64,000 nt of DNA, taken from Streptomyces sp. NBC_00236 (GTDB lineage: Bacteria; Actinomycetota; Actinomycetes; Streptomycetales; Streptomycetaceae). The notes beneath the pieces are model-generated. The model searched no databases, was not told where the DNA came from, and saw only the letters and a list, made by a program, of their open reading frames with translations. Below, one piece after another: positions 26,634 to 40,755 of this stretch (positions are counted from its first letter, which is position 1; every line of letters starts with the position of its first letter). The DNA is taken from positions 6,510,001 to 6,574,000 of the forward strand of contig NZ_CP108100.1 in assembly GCF_036195045.1 (NCBI RefSeq). Direction: 5' to 3'. Position numbers and translations under genes: made by a program.

Positions 26634-27045
26634 CTTGCGCCTACCTCGCAGTCCTGGTCGTCCGGCTGACCTGCGAAAACACCCTGCTCACACTCATTCC
26701 TCGGCTGGCCGGGCAAACAATGGGGCAACGGTTCGTCCCGTTGCCCAGGATTGAGCTTAAGCGGCGGCGGGTGCGTTGCCTCATTCGAGTGTGCTCATCC
26801 CGGGGGCACTGTGGCAAAGCCGACGTTCCCCGAAGTGTTCGGACGGACTTCCGACGCGCGTTCGGGAGATGTTCGAGGGGGGCGGTCGAAAGTGCTTCGA
26901 ATGCGCTCCGAGAGGGCTTTCGAGTGGGCGCGGTGCAAGGATTCCGTTAAGGATTCCGCGGCCATTCCGTCCGAGTGCAGGAGATTGCGGGGCCACGGGG
27001 GTGGTGCGTGGGTCGCTCCCATACGGAACCCTTACGATCCTCAGC
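26634..27045. promoter_or_regulatory. Divergent trkA / permease regulatory region with a hairpin
   Basis: No gene is seen in 412 bases. GGGCAACGG (26723-26731) and CCGTTGCCC (26738-26746) form a 9-bp stem with a 6-base loop, about 100 bp upstream of trkA. The part nearer the permease is rich in TTCGGA/TTCCG words and contains AAGGATTCCG twice. I looked for the ydaO/c-di-AMP riboswitch pattern and did not find it. Confidence 0.4.
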
Positions 27046-29094
27046 GTGTCCAAACTGACCGACGTGCCCAAACGGATCCTGATCGGACGGGCCCTGCGCA
27101 GCGACAAGCTGGGGGAGACGCTCCTCCCCAAGCGCATCGCCCTTCCCGTCTTCGCATCCGACCCGCTGTCCTCGGTGGCGTACGCACCCGGAGAAGTCCT
27201 CCTGGTGCTCTCCATCGCGGGCGTGTCGGCGTACCACTTCAGCCCGTGGATCGCGGTCGCCGTCGTGGTCCTGATGTTCACCGTCGTCGCCTCCTACCGG
27301 CAGAACGTGCACGCGTACCCGAGTGGTGGCGGCGACTACGAGGTCGCCAACACCAACCTCGGCCCGAAGGCCGGACTGACCGTGGCCAGCGCCCTGCTGG
27401 TCGACTACGTCCTGACCGTCGCCGTGTCCATCTCCTCCGGGGTGGAGAACCTCGGCTCCGCGATCCCGTTCGTCGTCGAGCACAAGACGACGTGCGCCAT
27501 CGCCGCCATCGTGCTGCTGACCGTGATGAACCTGCGCGGCGTCAAGGAGTCCGGCAAACTCTTCGCCATCCCCACCTACCTCTTCGTGGCCGGCGTCTTC
27601 ATCATGATCGCGTGGGGTGCCTTCCGCGGACTGGTCCTCGGCGACACCATGCACGCCCCGACCTCCGACTACACGATCAAGGCCGAGCACGGGGGCCTGG
27701 CGGGCTTCGCCCTGGTCTTCCTGCTCCTGCGGGCGTTCTCCTCCGGCTGTGCGGCCCTCACCGGTGTCGAGGCCATCAGTAACGGCGTCCCCGCCTTCCG
27801 GAAGCCCAAGAGCAAGAACGCCGCCACCACCCTCGCGATGATGGGCCTGCTGGCCGTCACCATGTTCTGCGGCATCATCGGGCTGGCCATGGCCACCGAC
27901 GTGAAGATGGCCGAGAACCCGGCGAAGGACCTGATCAACAACGGCACCCCGGTCGGCTCGTCCTTCGTCCAGGACCCGGTGATCTCCCAGGTCGCGGCCG
28001 CGGTCTTCGGCGACGGCACGTTCTTCTTCGTCATCCTCGCCGCGGCCACCGCCCTCGTCCTCTTCCTGGCCGCCAACACCGCGTACAACGGCTTCCCGCT
28101 GCTCGGCTCGATCCTGGCCCAGGACCGCTACCTGCCCCGCCAGCTGCACACCCGCGGTGACCGGCTCGCCTTCTCCAACGGCATCGTGCTGCTGGCCGGC
28201 GCGGCGATCCTGCTGGTCTGGATCTACGGGGCCGACTCGACCCGGCTGATCCAGCTCTACATCGTCGGCGTGTTCGTCTCCTTCACCCTCAGCCAGACCG
28301 GCATGGTCCGGCACTGGAACCGGCACCTGCGCACCGAGAAGGACCCGCTCAAGCGGCGTCACATGATCCGCTCCCGCGCGATCAACACCTTCGGGGCCTT
28401 CTTCACCGGCCTGGTGCTCGTGGTCGTCCTCGCCACCAAGTTCACCCACGGCGCCTGGGTCGCGCTGCTCGGCATGGTGATCTTCTACGGCACGATGACC
28501 GCGATCCGTAAGCACTACGACCGGGTCGCCGCGGAGATCGCCGCCGACGAGACGCCGTCCGACGAGACCGTCCGCCCCTCCCGGGTCCACTCGATCGTCC
28601 TGGTCTCCAAGCTGCACCGCCCGACCCTGCGCGCCCTCGCGTACGCGAAGCTGATCCGCACGGACCACCTGGAGGCGCTCTCCATCAGCGTCGACCCGGC
28701 CGAGACGAAGGCGCTCAAGGAGGACTGGGAGCGGCGCGGCATCAACGTCCCGCTGAAGATCCTCGACTCGCCGTACCGCGAGGTGACCCGCCCGGTCATC
28801 GAGTACGTCAAGGGCCTGCGCCGGGAGAGCCCGCGCGACGTCGTGAGCGTCTACATCCCGGAGTACGTCGTCGGCCACTGGTACGAGCACCTGCTCCACA
28901 ACCAGAGCGCCCTCAGGCTCAAGGGCCGGCTGCTCTTCACCCCGGGTGTGATGGTCACCTCCGTCCCGTACCAGCTGGAGTCCTCCGAAGCGGCCAAGAA
29001 GCGGGCCCGCAAGCGCGCGGACTGGAACGCCCCCGGCTCGGTGCGGCGCGGCCCCGTGGAGCGCAGGCACAAGGATCCGACGAACAAGAGCTGA
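27046..29094 (+). CDS. APC-superfamily permease, KimA-like potassium importer
   Basis: A 682-residue permease. It opens with a short cytoplasmic segment, then FASDPLSSVAYAPGEVLL, the signature region shared with KimA (YdaO) and related APC proteins. About twelve helices follow, and there is a C-terminal cytosolic domain of about 180 residues (SIVLVSKLHRPTLRALAYA) like the dimerising domain of KimA. KimA imports K+ with protons and is inhibited by c-di-AMP; here K+ is inferred from family and the adjacent TrkA and Kdp genes. It could still be an amino-acid permease. GTG start at 27046. Confidence 0.78.
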   Translation: MSKLTDVPKRILIGRALRSDKLGETLLPKRIALPVFASDPLSSVAYAPGEVLLVLSIAGVSAYHFSPWIAVAVVVLMFTVVASYRQNVHAYPSGGGDYEVANTNLGPKAGLTVASALLVDYVLTVAVSISSGVENLGSAIPFVVEHKTTCAIAAIVLLTVMNLRGVKESGKLFAIPTYLFVAGVFIMIAWGAFRGLVLGDTMHAPTSDYTIKAEHGGLAGFALVFLLLRAFSSGCAALTGVEAISNGVPAFRKPKSKNAATTLAMMGLLAVTMFCGIIGLAMATDVKMAENPAKDLINNGTPVGSSFVQDPVISQVAAAVFGDGTFFFVILAAATALVLFLAANTAYNGFPLLGSILAQDRYLPRQLHTRGDRLAFSNGIVLLAGAAILLVWIYGADSTRLIQLYIVGVFVSFTLSQTGMVRHWNRHLRTEKDPLKRRHMIRSRAINTFGAFFTGLVLVVVLATKFTHGAWVALLGMVIFYGTMTAIRKHYDRVAAEIAADETPSDETVRPSRVHSIVLVSKLHRPTLRALAYAKLIRTDHLEALSISVDPAETKALKEDWERRGINVPLKILDSPYREVTRPVIEYVKGLRRESPRDVVSVYIPEYVVGHWYEHLLHNQSALRLKGRLLFTPGVMVTSVPYQLESSEAAKKRARKRADWNAPGSVRRGPVERRHKDPTNKS

Positions 29095-29200
29095 CGCTCC
29101 GTAGCGGCACCTGGTAAGCGGCCGGACGGCACCCACGTAGACTCGTAGGTTGTTGTCCGGCCGTTCGCCGTCCTCCCTTGATCTCTGGAGCCCTCCCCTC

Positions 29201-30550
29201 ATGCAGAACGAATCCACTCCGCCGCAGACCGGGGAACCGCAGTCCGGGGAATCGCTCGTGGGGCAGGAGTACGAGGTCGAGGTCGGCCCGGTCGCCCACG
29301 GCGGCCACTGCATCGCCCGTACGGCCGAGGGCCAGGTCCTGTTCGTACGCCACGCCCTGCCCGGCGAGAAGGTCGTCGCCAAGGTCACCGACGGCGCCAC
29401 CGACTCCCGCTTCCTGCGCGCCGACGCGGTACGGATCATCGAGGAGTCCAAGGACCGGGTGAAGGCCCCGTGCCCGTTCGCCGGCCCCGGCAAGTGCGGC
29501 GGCTGCGACTGGCAGCACGCCAAGCCGGGTGCCCAGCGCCGGCTCAAGGGCGAAGTGATCGCCGAACAGCTCCAGCGCCTCGCGGGCCTCACCCCCGAGG
29601 AAGCGGGCTGGGACGGCACCGTCATGCCGGCCGAGGGCGACAAGCTCCCGCCGGGCGAGGTGCCCGCCTGGCGCACCCGCGTCCAGTACGCCATCGACGC
29701 GGACGGCCGCGTCGGCCTGCGCAAGCACCGCTCGCACGACATCGAGATCATCGACCAGTGCCTGATCGCCGCGCCCGGCGTCAGCGAGCTCGGCATCGAG
29801 AAGCAGGACTGGCCCCAGATGGCCACGGTGGAGGCCATCGCCGCCACCGGCTCCCACGACCGCCAGGTCATCCTCACCCCGCGCGAGGGCGGCCGCCTCC
29901 CGCTGGTCGAGCTCGACAAGCCCGTCTCGGTCCTGCGCGTCGACGAGCGCGACGGCGGAGTGCACCGCGTCCACGGCCGCGGCTTCGTCCGCGAGCGCGC
30001 CGACGACCGCACGTACCGCGTCGGCTCCGGCGGCTTCTGGCAGGTCCACCCGCAGGCCGCGGACACCCTGGTCCGCGCGGTCATGCAGGGCCTGCTGCCG
30101 CGCAAGAACGACACGGCGCTCGACCTCTACTGCGGCGTCGGCCTCTTCGCCGGCGCCATCGGCCAGCGCATCGGCGAGAAGGGCGCGGTGCTCGGCATCG
30201 AGTCCGGCAAGCGCGCGGTCGAGGACGCCCGCCACAACCTCAAGGACCTGGAGCGGGTCCGCATCGAGCACGGCAAGGTCGACCAGGTCCTGCCCCGCAC
30301 GGGCATCACCGAGTGCGACCTGATCGTCCTGGACCCGCCGCGCGCGGGCGCGGGCAAGGCCACGGTGAAGCAGCTGGTCGGCCTGGGGGCGCGCAAGATC
30401 GCGTACGTGGCGTGCGACCCGGCGGCGCTGGCGCGGGACCTGGCGTACTTCGCGGAGGGCGGGTACAAGGTGCGGACGCTGCGGGCGTTCGACCTGTTCC
30501 CGATGACGCACCATGTGGAGTGCGTGGCGATTCTGGAGCCCGTGAAGTAG
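29201..30550 (+). CDS. TRAM-domain class I SAM RNA methyltransferase (TrmA/RlmD family)
   Basis: Likely methylates U in tRNA or rRNA. The 449-residue enzyme has an N-terminal TRAM domain (VEVGPVAHGGHCIAR) and an iron-sulfur type cysteine cluster with CPFAGPGKCGGCDWQH. The Rossmann SAM site is ALDLYCGVGLFAG, and the catalytic-cysteine region reads YVACDPAALARDL. The conserved motif IVLDPPRAG and terminal HHVECVAILEP are present. The start at ATG 29201 follows CTGGAG. Confidence 0.9.
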   Translation: MQNESTPPQTGEPQSGESLVGQEYEVEVGPVAHGGHCIARTAEGQVLFVRHALPGEKVVAKVTDGATDSRFLRADAVRIIEESKDRVKAPCPFAGPGKCGGCDWQHAKPGAQRRLKGEVIAEQLQRLAGLTPEEAGWDGTVMPAEGDKLPPGEVPAWRTRVQYAIDADGRVGLRKHRSHDIEIIDQCLIAAPGVSELGIEKQDWPQMATVEAIAATGSHDRQVILTPREGGRLPLVELDKPVSVLRVDERDGGVHRVHGRGFVRERADDRTYRVGSGGFWQVHPQAADTLVRAVMQGLLPRKNDTALDLYCGVGLFAGAIGQRIGEKGAVLGIESGKRAVEDARHNLKDLERVRIEHGKVDQVLPRTGITECDLIVLDPPRAGAGKATVKQLVGLGARKIAYVACDPAALARDLAYFAEGGYKVRTLRAFDLFPMTHHVECVAILEPVK

Positions 30551-35663: not shown

Positions 35664-36017
35664 ATGAATACCGTCACTTCTGGACTCGGGGCGGCCGGGG
35701 TCTTCGCGGCGAAGCCGGTTACCGCCGAGGCCGGCACCGGAACGCCGTTCACACTGACCGAACTCGCCGCAACGTTCAGCGATGTCCTGGGCACGCACAT
35801 CGCCTACCGGGACATGCCGGTCGCCGACTACACCGCGACGTTGGCGGGTGCCGGGCTGCCTTCGGAGATGGCTGCCGCGGTGGCTGATGCCGATGCCGGG
35901 CTGGCCCGCGGAAAGCTGTTCACCGACAGCGACGACCTGGTCAAGCTCATCGGCCGGCCGGCGATCAGCGCGCATGAAGTCGTCCGGAACGCCACGGCCG
36001 TCGAGGGGGCACGGTGA
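35664..36017 (+). pseudogene. C-terminal remnant of a QorB/NmrA-type SDR oxidoreductase
   Basis: Only about 117 codons remain. From residue 25 on they match the C-terminal third of NAD(P)H-dependent quinone reductase-like SDRs (TLTELAATFSDVLG, IAYRDMPVADYTATLAGAGL, DLVKLIGRPAISAHEVVRNA). The N-terminal Rossmann domain with the GxxGxxG loop is missing, so it cannot bind cofactor as is. The end overlaps the next ORF in GTGA, a relic of an operon. Confidence 0.7.
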
Positions 36018-36440
36018 GTACTCCAGGGCCCGGCGTCGACACGCATGAGATGGTGCTGATCCATCGTGTTCTCCGGCGCGAGTTCGGTCAGCTACCGCGG
36101 TTGTTCCGCGCCGCGGCGGGTGACCGTGCGCGATCCAAGGTCGTCGGTGCGCACGCCCGGGAGATGCTGTCCTTCCTCCACACGCACCACACCGGCGAGG
36201 ACGAGCTGCTCTTTCCGCTGCTGCGTGAGCGAGCATCCCTCGACCAGGAGCTGATGCACCGCATGGACGCGCAGCACGCGCAGGTCGACGACGCCGTCAC
36301 GGCCGTCGACGCGGAGTTGCCGGCGTGGACGGCGAGCGCCGACGGCGCCGCGGGCGAGCGGATGGCCGCCTGCGTCGACGCCATGATGCCGACACTGATC
36401 GAGCGTGCCGAGTGCCGGGCGCCGACGGCCCCGCTTCGTC
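36014..36440 (+). pseudogene. Truncated hemerythrin-domain protein
   Basis: The first 130 residues are a hemerythrin HHE-like domain (HEMVLIHRVLRREF; FLHTHHTGEDELLFPLL; MHRMDAQHAQVDDAV), which normally binds a di-iron site. After LIERAE the family sequence stops and the frame runs on to 36919 through arginine- and cysteine-rich sequence with no domain. The last helices of the domain are therefore lost. It is coupled to the SDR remnant by GTGA. Confidence 0.65.
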
Positions 36441-36649
36441 GGAGCACGTTGGCAGGTCAGGGCCAAGCCCACTGCACGGACTGCCGGGCGGTCTTCCCTC
36501 TCAGGAATCGGGTGGAGGTTGAGCACCGCGACGTTCCCGCTCCGCTCCGGTGGCGGTGCTGCGCCTCGGCGCGGCGAAAGCCAGGTGCATGGGGCCTCGC
36601 AGGACTCGGGCGAGCCAGTCGGTGCGGGTTCGCCGGGCCGCGGCCGAGA

Positions 36650-36824
36650 CGTGTGCCTGCGGATACAGGGCATCGAATCCGTGGAGGCCACTCGGTCCCG
36701 GGGTGTTCGAGGAACCGCTCCAGCGCCCGCTGGGTGTCCTCGTCGGTGAGCGCGTACGTCGTCGTGAGGTACTGCCCCGTAGTTGCGCGGCGGCCAGCGT
36801 GGGCCTCACGGCGATCTCCTTCAC
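36650..36824 (-). pseudogene. Frameshifted N-terminal fragment of a DEAD/DEAH-box helicase
   Basis: From GTG 36824 the leftward frame reads VKEIAVRPTLAAAQLRG and then turns to low-complexity arginine codons. In the next frame the sequence continues as QYLTTTYALTDEDTQRALER, then FLEHPGTE. The combination resembles the N-terminus of large DUF1998/YprA-like helicases (PTLxAxQLRxxxxxYLTTTFALxD). One frameshift near 36776 joins the two parts; nothing of the helicase core remains. Confidence 0.45.
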
Positions 36825-37036
36825 TTCGTGCCGGTTCGGTGAGCTGCGTCAATGTATGTGTCGTCTCGGACAGGCGGTCCCGTAGTCCGGTTGACGAGGA
36901 CCGGGACATGGCCGAATAGGAACCGATCCGAGTCTCGAAGCTTTCCATTCCCGCGGTAGAAGCCACGGCTTTCACATAACAAGAGGTGCCGGGACCTCCG
37001 TACGATCTACCATTCGCGAGCTGACAAGGGGGAACT
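36825..37036 (+). promoter_or_regulatory. Upstream region of the helicase-nuclease gene
   Basis: A TACGAT hexamer at 37001-37006 is a possible -10, 30 bases before the start codon. No convincing -35 lies 16-18 bases upstream. AAGGGGGA at 37026-37033 is the ribosome site. Confidence 0.4.
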
Positions 37037-40000
37037 TTGGGCTGGCGCGAGGAGATCACCACGGCGGTCGACGAATGGATCGCCGTGGAAGGGGGAGCAG
37101 GTCAGCGCCCGCGATGGCGAAGGATCGGCCGCGCGGCCCGGGCCGGCGAGCCGGGTCGCTATGCAGTGGATCTTCGCGGCACCGAACTCAACCCCGACCA
37201 GCTCGAAAGCCTGCGCCTCGCCGGGCCCGAGGAATCGGGTGTGGATGCCGGCTTCGCTGTCACCGAAGCCATGCAGAGCGGTTCGGCGCTGACCGTCAGA
37301 GTCGCCGAGTTCGCGGACCCGGTCGACCCTTTCCTTTGGGTTCTGCAACAGCCCCCCACCTTTCTGCTGGAAGCCTTGAGGGACGGCATCGCCGGGTTGG
37401 GGGACACTCCGCTCGGCAGCCTGCTTGCTTCCGGCAGCCCCGCCGGAGCGCCGGCCCGGACCGAGGCACCGGCCGGCCTCTTCCCCGAGCAGAAGGAGGC
37501 GTACCGCGCCTGTCTGGGAACCGGCGTACGCCTCGTGTGGGGGCCACCCGGCACAGGGAAGACGATGGTGCTCACACTGGCCATCGGCGATCTGATGGCC
37601 GCAGGCAAGAGGGTCCTGCTCGTCTCCGCGACCAACATCGCCGTGGACAACGCCCTGAAGGGGGTCCTGAGGGGACACCGCCACAACAGCGGAGACGTCG
37701 TCCGCGTGGGACCGCCCCAGCTGAAGGAGATCGCTGACGACCCGCAGGTGTCCCTTCCTCTCATGGTCCGGGCCCGGCTGGCCGACGTCGAGGGCCGGCG
37801 TGCCCGGGTGTCAGTGGAACTGCTGGACATCCGAAGCCGCGCGGAGGATCTGGCGGAGCTGGAGGCTGGCCTCGTACGGTTCGACGCGGAAGCCTATGCG
37901 CAGGCCAGGGGCTTGGTGGCCGAGCCATTCGGTGATGCGGCGTCGCGTGATGTACGGGTGACGGAGCTGAAGAAGGCCGCCCGGGAGGCCGGCCAGACCC
38001 TGGCAGCGGCCGAACAGGACCTGAGCAGGGCGCTGAAGGACCGGGACGACGCCGAGGATTCGCGCCACCTCTGGAAGCAGGTCGACGCTCTTCTCGACGA
38101 GGCCGACGGGGTGGAACATGCCGCCACGGCAGCCGAGTCCGCCGCTCTTCAGAGCCAGGAGGGGCTGCGCGAGGCGCAGCGCGCCCTGCGCGAGGTCGAG
38201 AATCGGACAGGGCTCGCCAAGCTGCGTTCACGAGCTGAGCGAACCGAGGCCCAGGCCGCGTGCAGTGAGGCGGGAGTCCAGTTCCGAGAGGCACACGACC
38301 ATGCCCTCAAGGCCCGCGACATCGCGGATCGCCGCCGGGCCCAGATCGCGGTCCAGGCCGAGGAGATGACTCGGGCGATCCCCGTCTCCGGCACCGAGAT
38401 CGACCGGCGTGACAAGGCGGCGCGCGGCGCCGCCACCCGCCACCGGACGCTCACCCGGTCCCTGGGCGAATTTCGCTCGGCTCTCGCCACGGCCGAGGAC
38501 GAAGCCGGGCGCGCGCACCTCGCCGAGACGCTCATCGCCACTGCCGAGGAACAGGGCTGGCCGGCCCGGCACGGGAAGGCCGTGGCCCTGCGTCCCGTGG
38601 TCGCCTCCGAAGCGGCTCGAAAGGGTCATCTGGAGGAGCGTTACAGGCAGATTCAGGAGGAGTACGAGCGCCTCGCCCGTGACGCGCAGGGCGAGATCAT
38701 CAAGAATGCCCGTCTCGTTGCCACGACCCTGGCCCGCTTCCGTACCAACCGGCACGTCTTCTCCGGCCACTACGACGTGGTCCTCATCGACGAGGCCGGC
38801 GCCGCCTCCTTGCCCGAGGTCCTGCTCGCCGTCGCCCACGCCCAACAGGCTGCCGTGCTTCTCGGCGACTTCATGCAGCTGGGCCCGGTCGTTCCCCGGG
38901 CGTTGAAGGACAAAAGACGCCCTGACATCCAGCGCTGGCTGGTTCCGGACGTGTTTCGGCACTGCGGAATCACCGACCCGGCGGCAGCGCGGACACATCC
39001 CGCCTGTACGACCCTGGTGACCCAGAACCGGTTCGGTCGTGCCGTGATGGGCCTCGTGAACGGCCTGGCCTACGGCGGTGTGCTCCAGGCCGGACCCGTC
39101 GTACGGAGCCCCAGGAGCCCCGAGGACCCGGAGATCGTCCTCATCGACACCGACGGACTCCACGAACTCGCCCATGTCCATCTCACGGGCCCGAGCAAGG
39201 GCTGGTGGCCCGCGGGCCCCCTCATCTCCCGGGCCCTGATCGATCTGCACGGCGGGGACGGCGAGACCACAGGCGTCGTGACCCCGTACGGAGACCAGGC
39301 CGAGGCCACACTGGAGGCGCTTCGCGACATCGAACGTGATGGTGGTCCGAGCGCCGAGGTCGGCACCGCGCACCGGTTTCAGGGCCGGGAGTTCCCCATC
39401 GTCGTCTTCGACACAGTCGAGGGCGAACACAGCCGGCCGCTGTGGATGGCGAAGGCATCGCGCGCGCCGGAGGCGAGCGATTGGATGCGCAGCGGGATCA
39501 GGCTGTTCAACGTGGCCATGACCCGCGTACAGACTCGCGTGTACGTCATCGCGAGCGGCACACGCATCCGGGAGGTGGCACGGAAGGCGCCGCACTCCCC
39601 GTTCGGACAGCTGGACGCCCTCATCGGCACGTCCGGAGTGCGGGTTCTCCCCGCCAAGTCTCTGATCACGCCGCCCGAGCTGAACGTGCCACGCGGGGAG
39701 TTCGGCGACCGTCTGGCAGAGGTCCTCTCACGGCACGTGGAGGTCAGTGATGTCGACGACGAGACGACGTTCTACACGTCCTTCGTCGCCGCCATCAGAA
39801 GCGCGCGGACATCACTGTGGCTGTGGACCCCCTGGGTGGCCAGGCGCGTCCGGATGATCCTTCCGGAGCTGCGCGCGGCGGTCGACCGGGGTGTACGGGT
39901 GACCGTTTTCGTCCGCGACCCCAGCGACCAGCTTCAGAAGAAGCCGGCGAACCTGTCTCTCGTTGAGGACCTGCGTGCGGTCGTCCATACGGTCGTCCCG

Positions 40001-40336
40001 ATGCACGTCATGCACCAGAAGATCGTGGTCGTGGATGAAAGGACCGTGATGCTCGGCAGCCTCAACGCCCTGTCACAGAGCTGGACCCGCGAGGTGATGG
40101 TGACCATGCGCGGCGCCTATTTCGCCCGCAAGATCCTCACTCACGAGCATGCCGAGATCTTCGCCCGCCCGCCGAAGTGCCCCCGGTGCGGACAGGAGGA
40201 CATCGAGATCAGGCGCGGTGCGAAGGAGAACTGGTACTGGCGCTGCTACAACAGCCAGTGCCCGACGGGTGGCGGCAACAAGGCATGGAAGAAGGACATC
40301 GACCTCTGGCGCCGGCCGGGCAGCGCACAACGGTAG
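37037..40336 (+). CDS. SF1 helicase-PLD nuclease-zinc ribbon fusion, Mokosh type II (MkoC)-like defence protein
   Basis: A 1099-residue, apparently intact protein. The N-terminal 150 residues are unassigned. Then comes an SF1 (Upf1/COG1112-like) helicase core: Walker A GPPGTGKT (169-176), a coiled-coil insertion of roughly 240-520, Walker B LIDEAGAAS, GDFMQLGPV, the motif VGTAHRFQGREFPIVVFD, and NVAMTR. A C-terminal phospholipase-D-type domain carries a full HxKx4Dx6GSxN motif (H993, K995, D1000, N1010). A four-cysteine ribbon follows (C1048, C1051, C1070, C1075). Helicase plus PLD in one chain is the architecture of type II Mokosh, an anti-phage system. TTG 37037 is supported by AAGGGGGA. 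It stands alone among gene fragments. Confidence 0.82.
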   Translation: MGWREEITTAVDEWIAVEGGAGQRPRWRRIGRAARAGEPGRYAVDLRGTELNPDQLESLRLAGPEESGVDAGFAVTEAMQSGSALTVRVAEFADPVDPFLWVLQQPPTFLLEALRDGIAGLGDTPLGSLLASGSPAGAPARTEAPAGLFPEQKEAYRACLGTGVRLVWGPPGTGKTMVLTLAIGDLMAAGKRVLLVSATNIAVDNALKGVLRGHRHNSGDVVRVGPPQLKEIADDPQVSLPLMVRARLADVEGRRARVSVELLDIRSRAEDLAELEAGLVRFDAEAYAQARGLVAEPFGDAASRDVRVTELKKAAREAGQTLAAAEQDLSRALKDRDDAEDSRHLWKQVDALLDEADGVEHAATAAESAALQSQEGLREAQRALREVENRTGLAKLRSRAERTEAQAACSEAGVQFREAHDHALKARDIADRRRAQIAVQAEEMTRAIPVSGTEIDRRDKAARGAATRHRTLTRSLGEFRSALATAEDEAGRAHLAETLIATAEEQGWPARHGKAVALRPVVASEAARKGHLEERYRQIQEEYERLARDAQGEIIKNARLVATTLARFRTNRHVFSGHYDVVLIDEAGAASLPEVLLAVAHAQQAAVLLGDFMQLGPVVPRALKDKRRPDIQRWLVPDVFRHCGITDPAAARTHPACTTLVTQNRFGRAVMGLVNGLAYGGVLQAGPVVRSPRSPEDPEIVLIDTDGLHELAHVHLTGPSKGWWPAGPLISRALIDLHGGDGETTGVVTPYGDQAEATLEALRDIERDGGPSAEVGTAHRFQGREFPIVVFDTVEGEHSRPLWMAKASRAPEASDWMRSGIRLFNVAMTRVQTRVYVIASGTRIREVARKAPHSPFGQLDALIGTSGVRVLPAKSLITPPELNVPRGEFGDRLAEVLSRHVEVSDVDDETTFYTSFVAAIRSARTSLWLWTPWVARRVRMILPELRAAVDRGVRVTVFVRDPSDQLQKKPANLSLVEDLRAVVHTVVPMHVMHQKIVVVDERTVMLGSLNALSQSWTREVMVTMRGAYFARKILTHEHAEIFARPPKCPRCGQEDIEIRRGAKENWYWRCYNSQCPTGGGNKAWKKDIDLWRRPGSAQR

Positions 40337-40479
40337 CTCACCGGGAGCTGCGCGGGACGCCCTCCGCCGGGCGTGGCCGCGATACGTACGCGGCCCTTCT
40401 CGGTGACCACCCTTCGTGAACGCGGGTGAACCGCGTGAGCTCCTGGGGTCGGGCATCCGTGCCAGACGTCACGTTCGGT

Positions 40480-40755
40480 CTGCTTGTCGGCGTGTGTACC
40501 CTCCTGAGTGAACTCCCCGACGTCCCGGTCGTCTCGCATCCTGCCTTCGCCGCCAGGGGCCTCGGCTGGGCACACGCCCATGATGACGGCACACCGTTGG
40601 CCACCCTCGCCCTGTCCGGGGCCCGTGCGCTGACCGGTTTCCACGACGGCCAGGGCGCTGAATGGAGACGGGAGGCCTGGGCATCGGTGGGACTGTTGCG
40701 GGACGAGCTGCCCCCACGGTCGGCGTCCGCAGCGTGGCCCGGCAGCTTGAGGGAC
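40480..40755 (+). pseudogene. Fragment resembling JetD/TIGR02679 of Wadjet systems
   Basis: The rightward frame contains VVSHPAFAARGLGWAHAHDD, then GTPLATLAL, and later EWRREAWASVGLLRDELP. This order recalls the mid-region of TIGR02679 proteins (JetD, the Wadjet nuclease), which have an AARxxGDAHxxDxGTPLA segment followed by RRxxWxxxGVxxDxL. Neither the N-terminal nor the C-terminal Toprim-like part is present. The frame then runs antisense into the MFS gene. The identification rests on memory of the family pattern. Confidence 0.4.

Follow-up and report, generated by a model that had tools for sequence, protein, structure and literature searches.

A 64,000-nucleotide stretch of Streptomyces sp. 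NBC_00236 (contig NZ_CP108100.1, positions 6,510,001 to 6,574,000; hereafter the window) carries, at positions 37037–40336, a gene for a predicted Upf1-like superfamily 1 (SF1) helicase that is fused to one phospholipase D (PLD) half-site and a zinc ribbon. We suggest, with a probability of roughly two in three, that its product is an actinobacterial defence nuclease that is driven by ATP and acts on its own. On the strength of its sequence, the gene is real and intact and probably encodes an active defence helicase–nuclease belonging to an actinobacterial family. Defence is the best-supported role given the patchy distribution of the family, the defence islands that surround some of its members, the remnants of defence genes beside the window copy and the use of a variable chromosomal hotspot. 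The original prediction, made from the letters of the window, had proposed the gene as a candidate for a system like Mokosh type II (that is, the single-protein system MkoC), and membership of that type did not hold.

An intact helicase–PLD–ribbon gene

Because the DNA is approximately 69% GC, the length of the open reading frame (ORF) is in itself weak evidence, and an opposite-strand ORF of 1055 amino acids is also present at 26947–30114. The frame, which has no internal stops, is taken as real because of its homologues and its low ratio of nonsynonymous to synonymous substitution rates (dN/dS). A search that scored 7992 candidates yielded 397 proteins at E ≤ 1e-3; the 120 listed homologues are 1000–1197 amino acids long and the named organisms are actinobacterial (for example, Streptomyces, Nonomuraea, Kribbella and Kitasatospora). 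Over the first 1090 codons, dN/dS is 0.168 against S. atratus (L043) and 0.136 against S. globisporus (L044), the two closest copies, and it is lowest in the PLD part (0.03–0.06). The gene is intact and under purifying selection.

Every motif that had been predicted (that is, the full set of SF1 helicase motifs, a complete PLD motif and, at the C terminus, a C-x2-C-x18-C-x4-C ribbon) was found in its place (Table 1). Pfam recognizes AAA_11 (residues 151–619), AAA_12 (656–840) and PLDc_2, and both the core motifs and the fold of the AlphaFold2 model (predicted local distance difference test score, 86.6) point to an Upf1-like SF1 helicase with an N-terminal helix and a barrel presumably of the 1B type. 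The PLD motif (HxKx4Dx6GSxN) occurs once per chain within a Nuc-like predicted fold, as in the single-HKD class, and its H993, K995, D1000, G1007, S1008 and N1010 are invariant in 36 of 36 rows of alignment A1, the two MkoC references included. The ribbon cysteines fall in columns at least 90% conserved (63 rows, alignment A4), and the ribbon weakly resembles that of Top1.

Relation to Mokosh type II

That helicase and PLD share one chain, as in MkoC, is confirmed by Pfam and by the alignment; closer kinship is contradicted by several comparisons. The MkoC references (L063 and L064, encoded on plasmids of Agrobacterium and P. syringae) align with the PADLOC MkoC model over its whole length at 1235 and 1373 bits, whereas the window protein reaches 103 bits in three stretches, the best of which (residues 744–1019 on model positions 859–1111 of 1136) covers 22% of the model. 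Among PADLOC models it scores highest against MkoA (126 bits, confined to the helicase part) and next against MkoC, and no model in PADLOC-DB 2.0.0 or NCBIfam 20.0 is matched end to end. Identity to the two references in A1 is 20 and 22%, and the MkoC N terminus is about 110 residues longer: 274 and 286 residues precede Walker A in the references versus 168 in the window protein, which thus lacks the MkoC-type region of about 275–300 residues. The ribbon had been singled out as a difference from MkoC, rightly so: of the 30 rows that represent the family in A1, 29 have all four cysteines and that of G061 has three in register, whereas neither MkoC reference row has any.

The helical insertion within the helicase fared otherwise. 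Helices are present where an insertion of some 280 residues had been noted, over a slightly longer span (residues 249–557), but they mark no subtype, because the spacing in the MkoC references is almost equal. Between the lysine of Walker A and the aspartate of the DE box lie 410–411 residues in 27 close relatives as in the window protein itself; two members of the group at 36–38% identity have 417 and 419, the MkoC references have 397 and 399, and four relatives at 24–25% identity have 276–279.

In a helicase-core tree of modest sampling (298 columns and 32 taxa, including four MkoC proteins), from which the long-branch rows lacking Walker A (L026 and L030) had been taken out, MkoC falls with COG1112 helicases that have no PLD motif. 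Approximately unbiased (AU) tests rejected a constrained clade of the family with MkoC (p = 0.0003) and a single clade of all helicase–PLD fusions (p = 2e-5); a clade of the family with MkoA was tolerated (p = 0.40), as was one with the 24–25% relatives (p = 0.107). Repeated loss of PLD is an alternative to repeated fusion as a reading of this tree. The family shares its design with MkoC but is a different lineage that apparently evolved separately.

Distribution and genomic setting

Presence/absence polymorphism among related strains, which a defence gene had been expected to show, is evident: at E ≤ 1e-60 the gene is matched in 14 of 150 genomes of the genus, a count that includes the genome of the window. 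Nine of these hold a full-length open frame, the aligned frame of G169 contains one stop, the gene of G141 is split over two contigs, and G129, G136 and G175 carry fragments. Across a class-wide sample, 11 of 197 genomes match at 1e-20, with G288 and G269 the only full-length family members besides G000. Named phage records gave one weak match and viral contigs five short helicase-motif matches, which provides no evidence of phage carriage in these records; 56 plasmid records match, none of them reaching 80% coverage.

The segment at 36693–40413 is 92% identical in DNA to L043 and L044 and spans the helicase–PLD gene and the first part of a divergent DruE-like gene. The proposed setting between gene fragments was borne out on both sides, and two of the three fragments (the DruE-like helicase and a DUF3323 fragment, which we take to belong to a TIGR02679/JetD-type protein) are what is left of defence genes on either side of one that survived. 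With this and the patchy presence of the family, the earlier view of the single-chain helicase–PLD protein as a defence gene is very probably correct. No clean empty site was obtained, the flanks differing in G029, G057 and G054. Left of the segment common to L043, positions 36600–36690 have 82–90% matches in several same-genus genomes.

Within the window, the 3' side of a TRAM-domain RNA methyltransferase gene is a variable site, and the 3' end of this gene forms the island border in L044; in G173 it lies near an island that contains Pgl and helicase–PLD genes. Across 23 loci, 304 genes were called behind the methyltransferase gene, and 256 of them lack a counterpart at any of the 22 remaining loci. 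From an initial list of 112 genes, the hotspot scan took in 97, in 20 genomes, that encode at least 240 amino acids and start no more than 9 kb away. Elsewhere the site holds type I restriction–modification genes (G030), a Mokosh type I pair (G033, L135 6820–11971; MkoA 777 bits, MkoB 263 bits) and a PprDinG-type protein of the pPIWI-RE kind (G029, L119 8750–12415; 1071 bits). A second hotspot, beside acnA and a helix-turn-helix (HTH) gene (L051, L052, L093 and L113), is occupied in G016, G175 (a fragment), G013 and G049 by members or relatives of the family.

We compared neighbours at 17 loci (leaving out L044 as a near copy of L043, G169 at a contig end and the G024 fragment) with control places that lie on the same chromosome or contig at a distance of roughly 90–500 kb, calling genes of 130 amino acids or more by a simple GC-frame method. 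Pooled rather than counted per locus, 97 of the nearest genes matched 87 PADLOC families and 84 genes at 14 control places matched 28 (E ≤ 1e-20), these being tallies of families and not of genes because one protein can match many models. Each tally lists its first 25 families: those for the 17 loci include PglX, PglW, PglZ, BrxC, DrmA, DrmD, DrmMI and NsnA/B/C; those for the control places are PD-T4-6, mad3, mad6, C3a189, MkoA, HEAT-ARM, IetA and subtilase. One control place (L100) proved to contain the acnA/HTH genes.

At individual loci, the gene lies between PglYZ and PglX (L046, G016; PglY/BrxC, PglZ and PglX matched), immediately upstream of PglW and PglX (L087, G173), next to DrmD and DrmMI (L049, G061) and near TerY and STK_OB of a TerY/kinase cluster (L050, G047); in L043, Menshen NsnA/B/C lie downstream and DruE-like and UvrD-like genes upstream. 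An obligatory YprA/DruE partner is unsupported, such a neighbour being found among the individually scanned loci only at L043 (and its near copy L044). Next to one helicase–PLD subclade, a small protein of 137 amino acids that looks PIN-like by eye recurs in four genomes (L048 12419–12829, L089 12042–12452, L092 8802–9212 and L106 12308–12718).

Table 1 Features of the helicase–PLD–ribbon gene and its surroundings in the window
Feature	Position	Strand	Basis or remark
Helicase–PLD–ribbon gene	37037..40336	+	1099 amino acids, TTG start; ORF list, profile matches, dN/dS
Shine–Dalgarno-like aagggggaac	37026..37035	+	Sequence
N-terminal helix and beta-barrel, residues 1–147	37037..37477	+	Model; aligns with start of Upf1/IGHMBP2 helicase cores
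Walker A GPPGTGKT, residues 169–176	37541..37564	+	Alignment
Long helices inserted in RecA1, residues 249–557	37781..38707	+	AlphaFold2; MkoC same size class
DEAG box, residues 585–588	38789..38800	+	Alignment
AHRFQGRE, residues 778–785, RecA2	39368..39391	+	Alignment
NVAMTR, residues 825–830, RecA2	39509..39526	+	Alignment
PLDc_2 domain, residues 917–1026	39785..40114	+	Pfam
Single HKD motif, H993-x-K995-x4-D1000-x6-G1007-S1008-x-N1010	40013..40066	+	Alignment
Putative zinc ribbon, C1048/C1051/C1070/C1075	40178..40261	+	Alignment
5' portion of a divergent helicase gene of the Druantia type (DruE-like), shortened and frameshifted	36693..36950 (right edge approximate)	-	Open in L043 and L044
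Hemerythrin gene, apparently truncated near 36404	36014..36404	+	Identity with G023 (91%) and G032 (85%) ends there
DUF3323 (PF11796) fragment	40480..40710	+	54.8 bits
TRAM-domain RNA methyltransferase gene	29150..30550	+	In 61 of 61 same-genus genomes

Proposed role and alternative explanations

We propose that the helicase would load on single-stranded nucleic acid exposed during phage growth and move along it at the expense of ATP, while the long helices and the ribbon might hold the substrate or a partner. Because each chain has one HKD motif, two chains may pair to form one PLD active site, which would then cut the phage nucleic acid; nucleases of the single-HKD type (Nuc, NucT and Zucchini) build one active site as dimers, and these nucleases and the Upf1-like helicases include enzymes that act on DNA and enzymes that act on RNA.

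Several observations weigh against such a role. Helicase and nuclease activities are inferred from conserved residues, and the ribbon (dN/dS of 0.34 and 0.99 over 50 codons) shows no clear constraint between the closest copies. The window copy is without its former neighbours, and the TRAM hotspot was noticed after the fact. By individual scan, full-length known systems were found at 4 of the 17 loci and the TerY/kinase cluster at a fifth, the others having been scanned within the pooled tally, and several copies (for example, L047, L088, L089 and L091) have neighbours whose opening residues suggest metabolic genes.

Were the protein instead a divergent but true MkoC, this would explain the common order of helicase then PLD, the three-stretch match to the MkoC model, the similar Walker A to DE-box spacing and the alignment of the PLD profiles at 97.8% probability; we nevertheless consider this unlikely in view of the low score and model coverage, the two rejected clades, the shorter N terminus and the ribbon that both MkoC references lack. 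The gene could also encode an accessory or effector nuclease of Pgl/BREX-2, DISARM and Menshen, the window copy then being an orphan. Its places within or directly beside the Pgl genes of G016 and G173 and the DISARM genes of G061 fit such a function, but neighbours vary from locus to locus, a known system was shown at a minority of loci and the window copy is under purifying selection though its neighbours are gone, so that this too appears improbable.

The idea that the protein is a hitch-hiker in variable regions, serving nucleic-acid repair or RNA surveillance, is more doubtful still: its relatives Upf1, Senataxin and Dna2 are housekeeping enzymes, yet 136 of the 150 same-genus genomes have no match at the threshold used and three more only fragments, and the gene occurs in defence islands. 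Between stand-alone defence and a nuclease arm of Pgl and other systems, we prefer the stand-alone role because the neighbours differ between loci and because the window copy, though alone, is still under constraint. Only tentatively do we go further and envision an independently evolved single-gene antiphage family of Actinobacteria, outside the end-to-end models of both databases, that has an exchangeable tail (zinc ribbon or DUF5710) and in some strains may also serve as the nuclease arm of Pgl/BREX-2 islands, interleaved with their core genes.

If the protein is active, the helicase–PLD fusion would have arisen more than once as a defence design, proteins of Pgl, DISARM and Menshen islands that go by no other name than 'AAA domain-containing' would be accounted for, and two Streptomyces chromosomal sites could be mined for new systems. 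The gene is a good experimental candidate and does not represent a new principle.

Comparison with other systems

Mokosh type I (MkoA and MkoB; G033) likewise combines a helicase with PLD, carried by MkoB, and uses the same TRAM methyltransferase hotspot, and its MkoA is one of the partners that the AU tests tolerated. It differs in having two genes, in the matches of MkoA to kinase models and in the weak PLD profile match of MkoB (67.5%), whereas the window protein is one fused chain without kinase-model matches among the Pfam and PADLOC profiles. Actinobacterial helicase–PLD proteins with a DUF5710 tail (L051 and L053) are also single chains and are among the 24–25% relatives with the shorter insertion; at their C termini DUF5710 replaces the ribbon, as an exchangeable tail. 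DISARM DrmC, a PLD defence protein without a helicase in its chain, matches the PLD part of the window protein at 33 bits. No MkoC structure appears among the structural matches listed.

Papers on ARMADA, BRIGADE and TALON and on BREX variants (PMC12458937 and PMC12839542), which in their accessible parts discuss PLD nucleases either in general terms or as neighbours of YprA helicases, were set aside as prior descriptions, as the helicase–PLD–ribbon fusion is not treated in those parts. Nor is the family described in the accessible parts of PMC10925250, PMC11291487, PMC10952713, PMC12988326, PMC10482375 and PMC13092281, and the literature listings likewise showed no paper on it, with the subscription literature largely outside this search.

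A related arrangement was seen in Escherichia coli, in which DNA overlapping genes annotated yjhR (L061, 4890–5906) encodes 338 amino acids of a helicase C terminus with a PLD motif and looks like an MkoC remnant; a 1.9-kb query was matched in 2909 of 5426 genomes, over 80% of its length in 1469.
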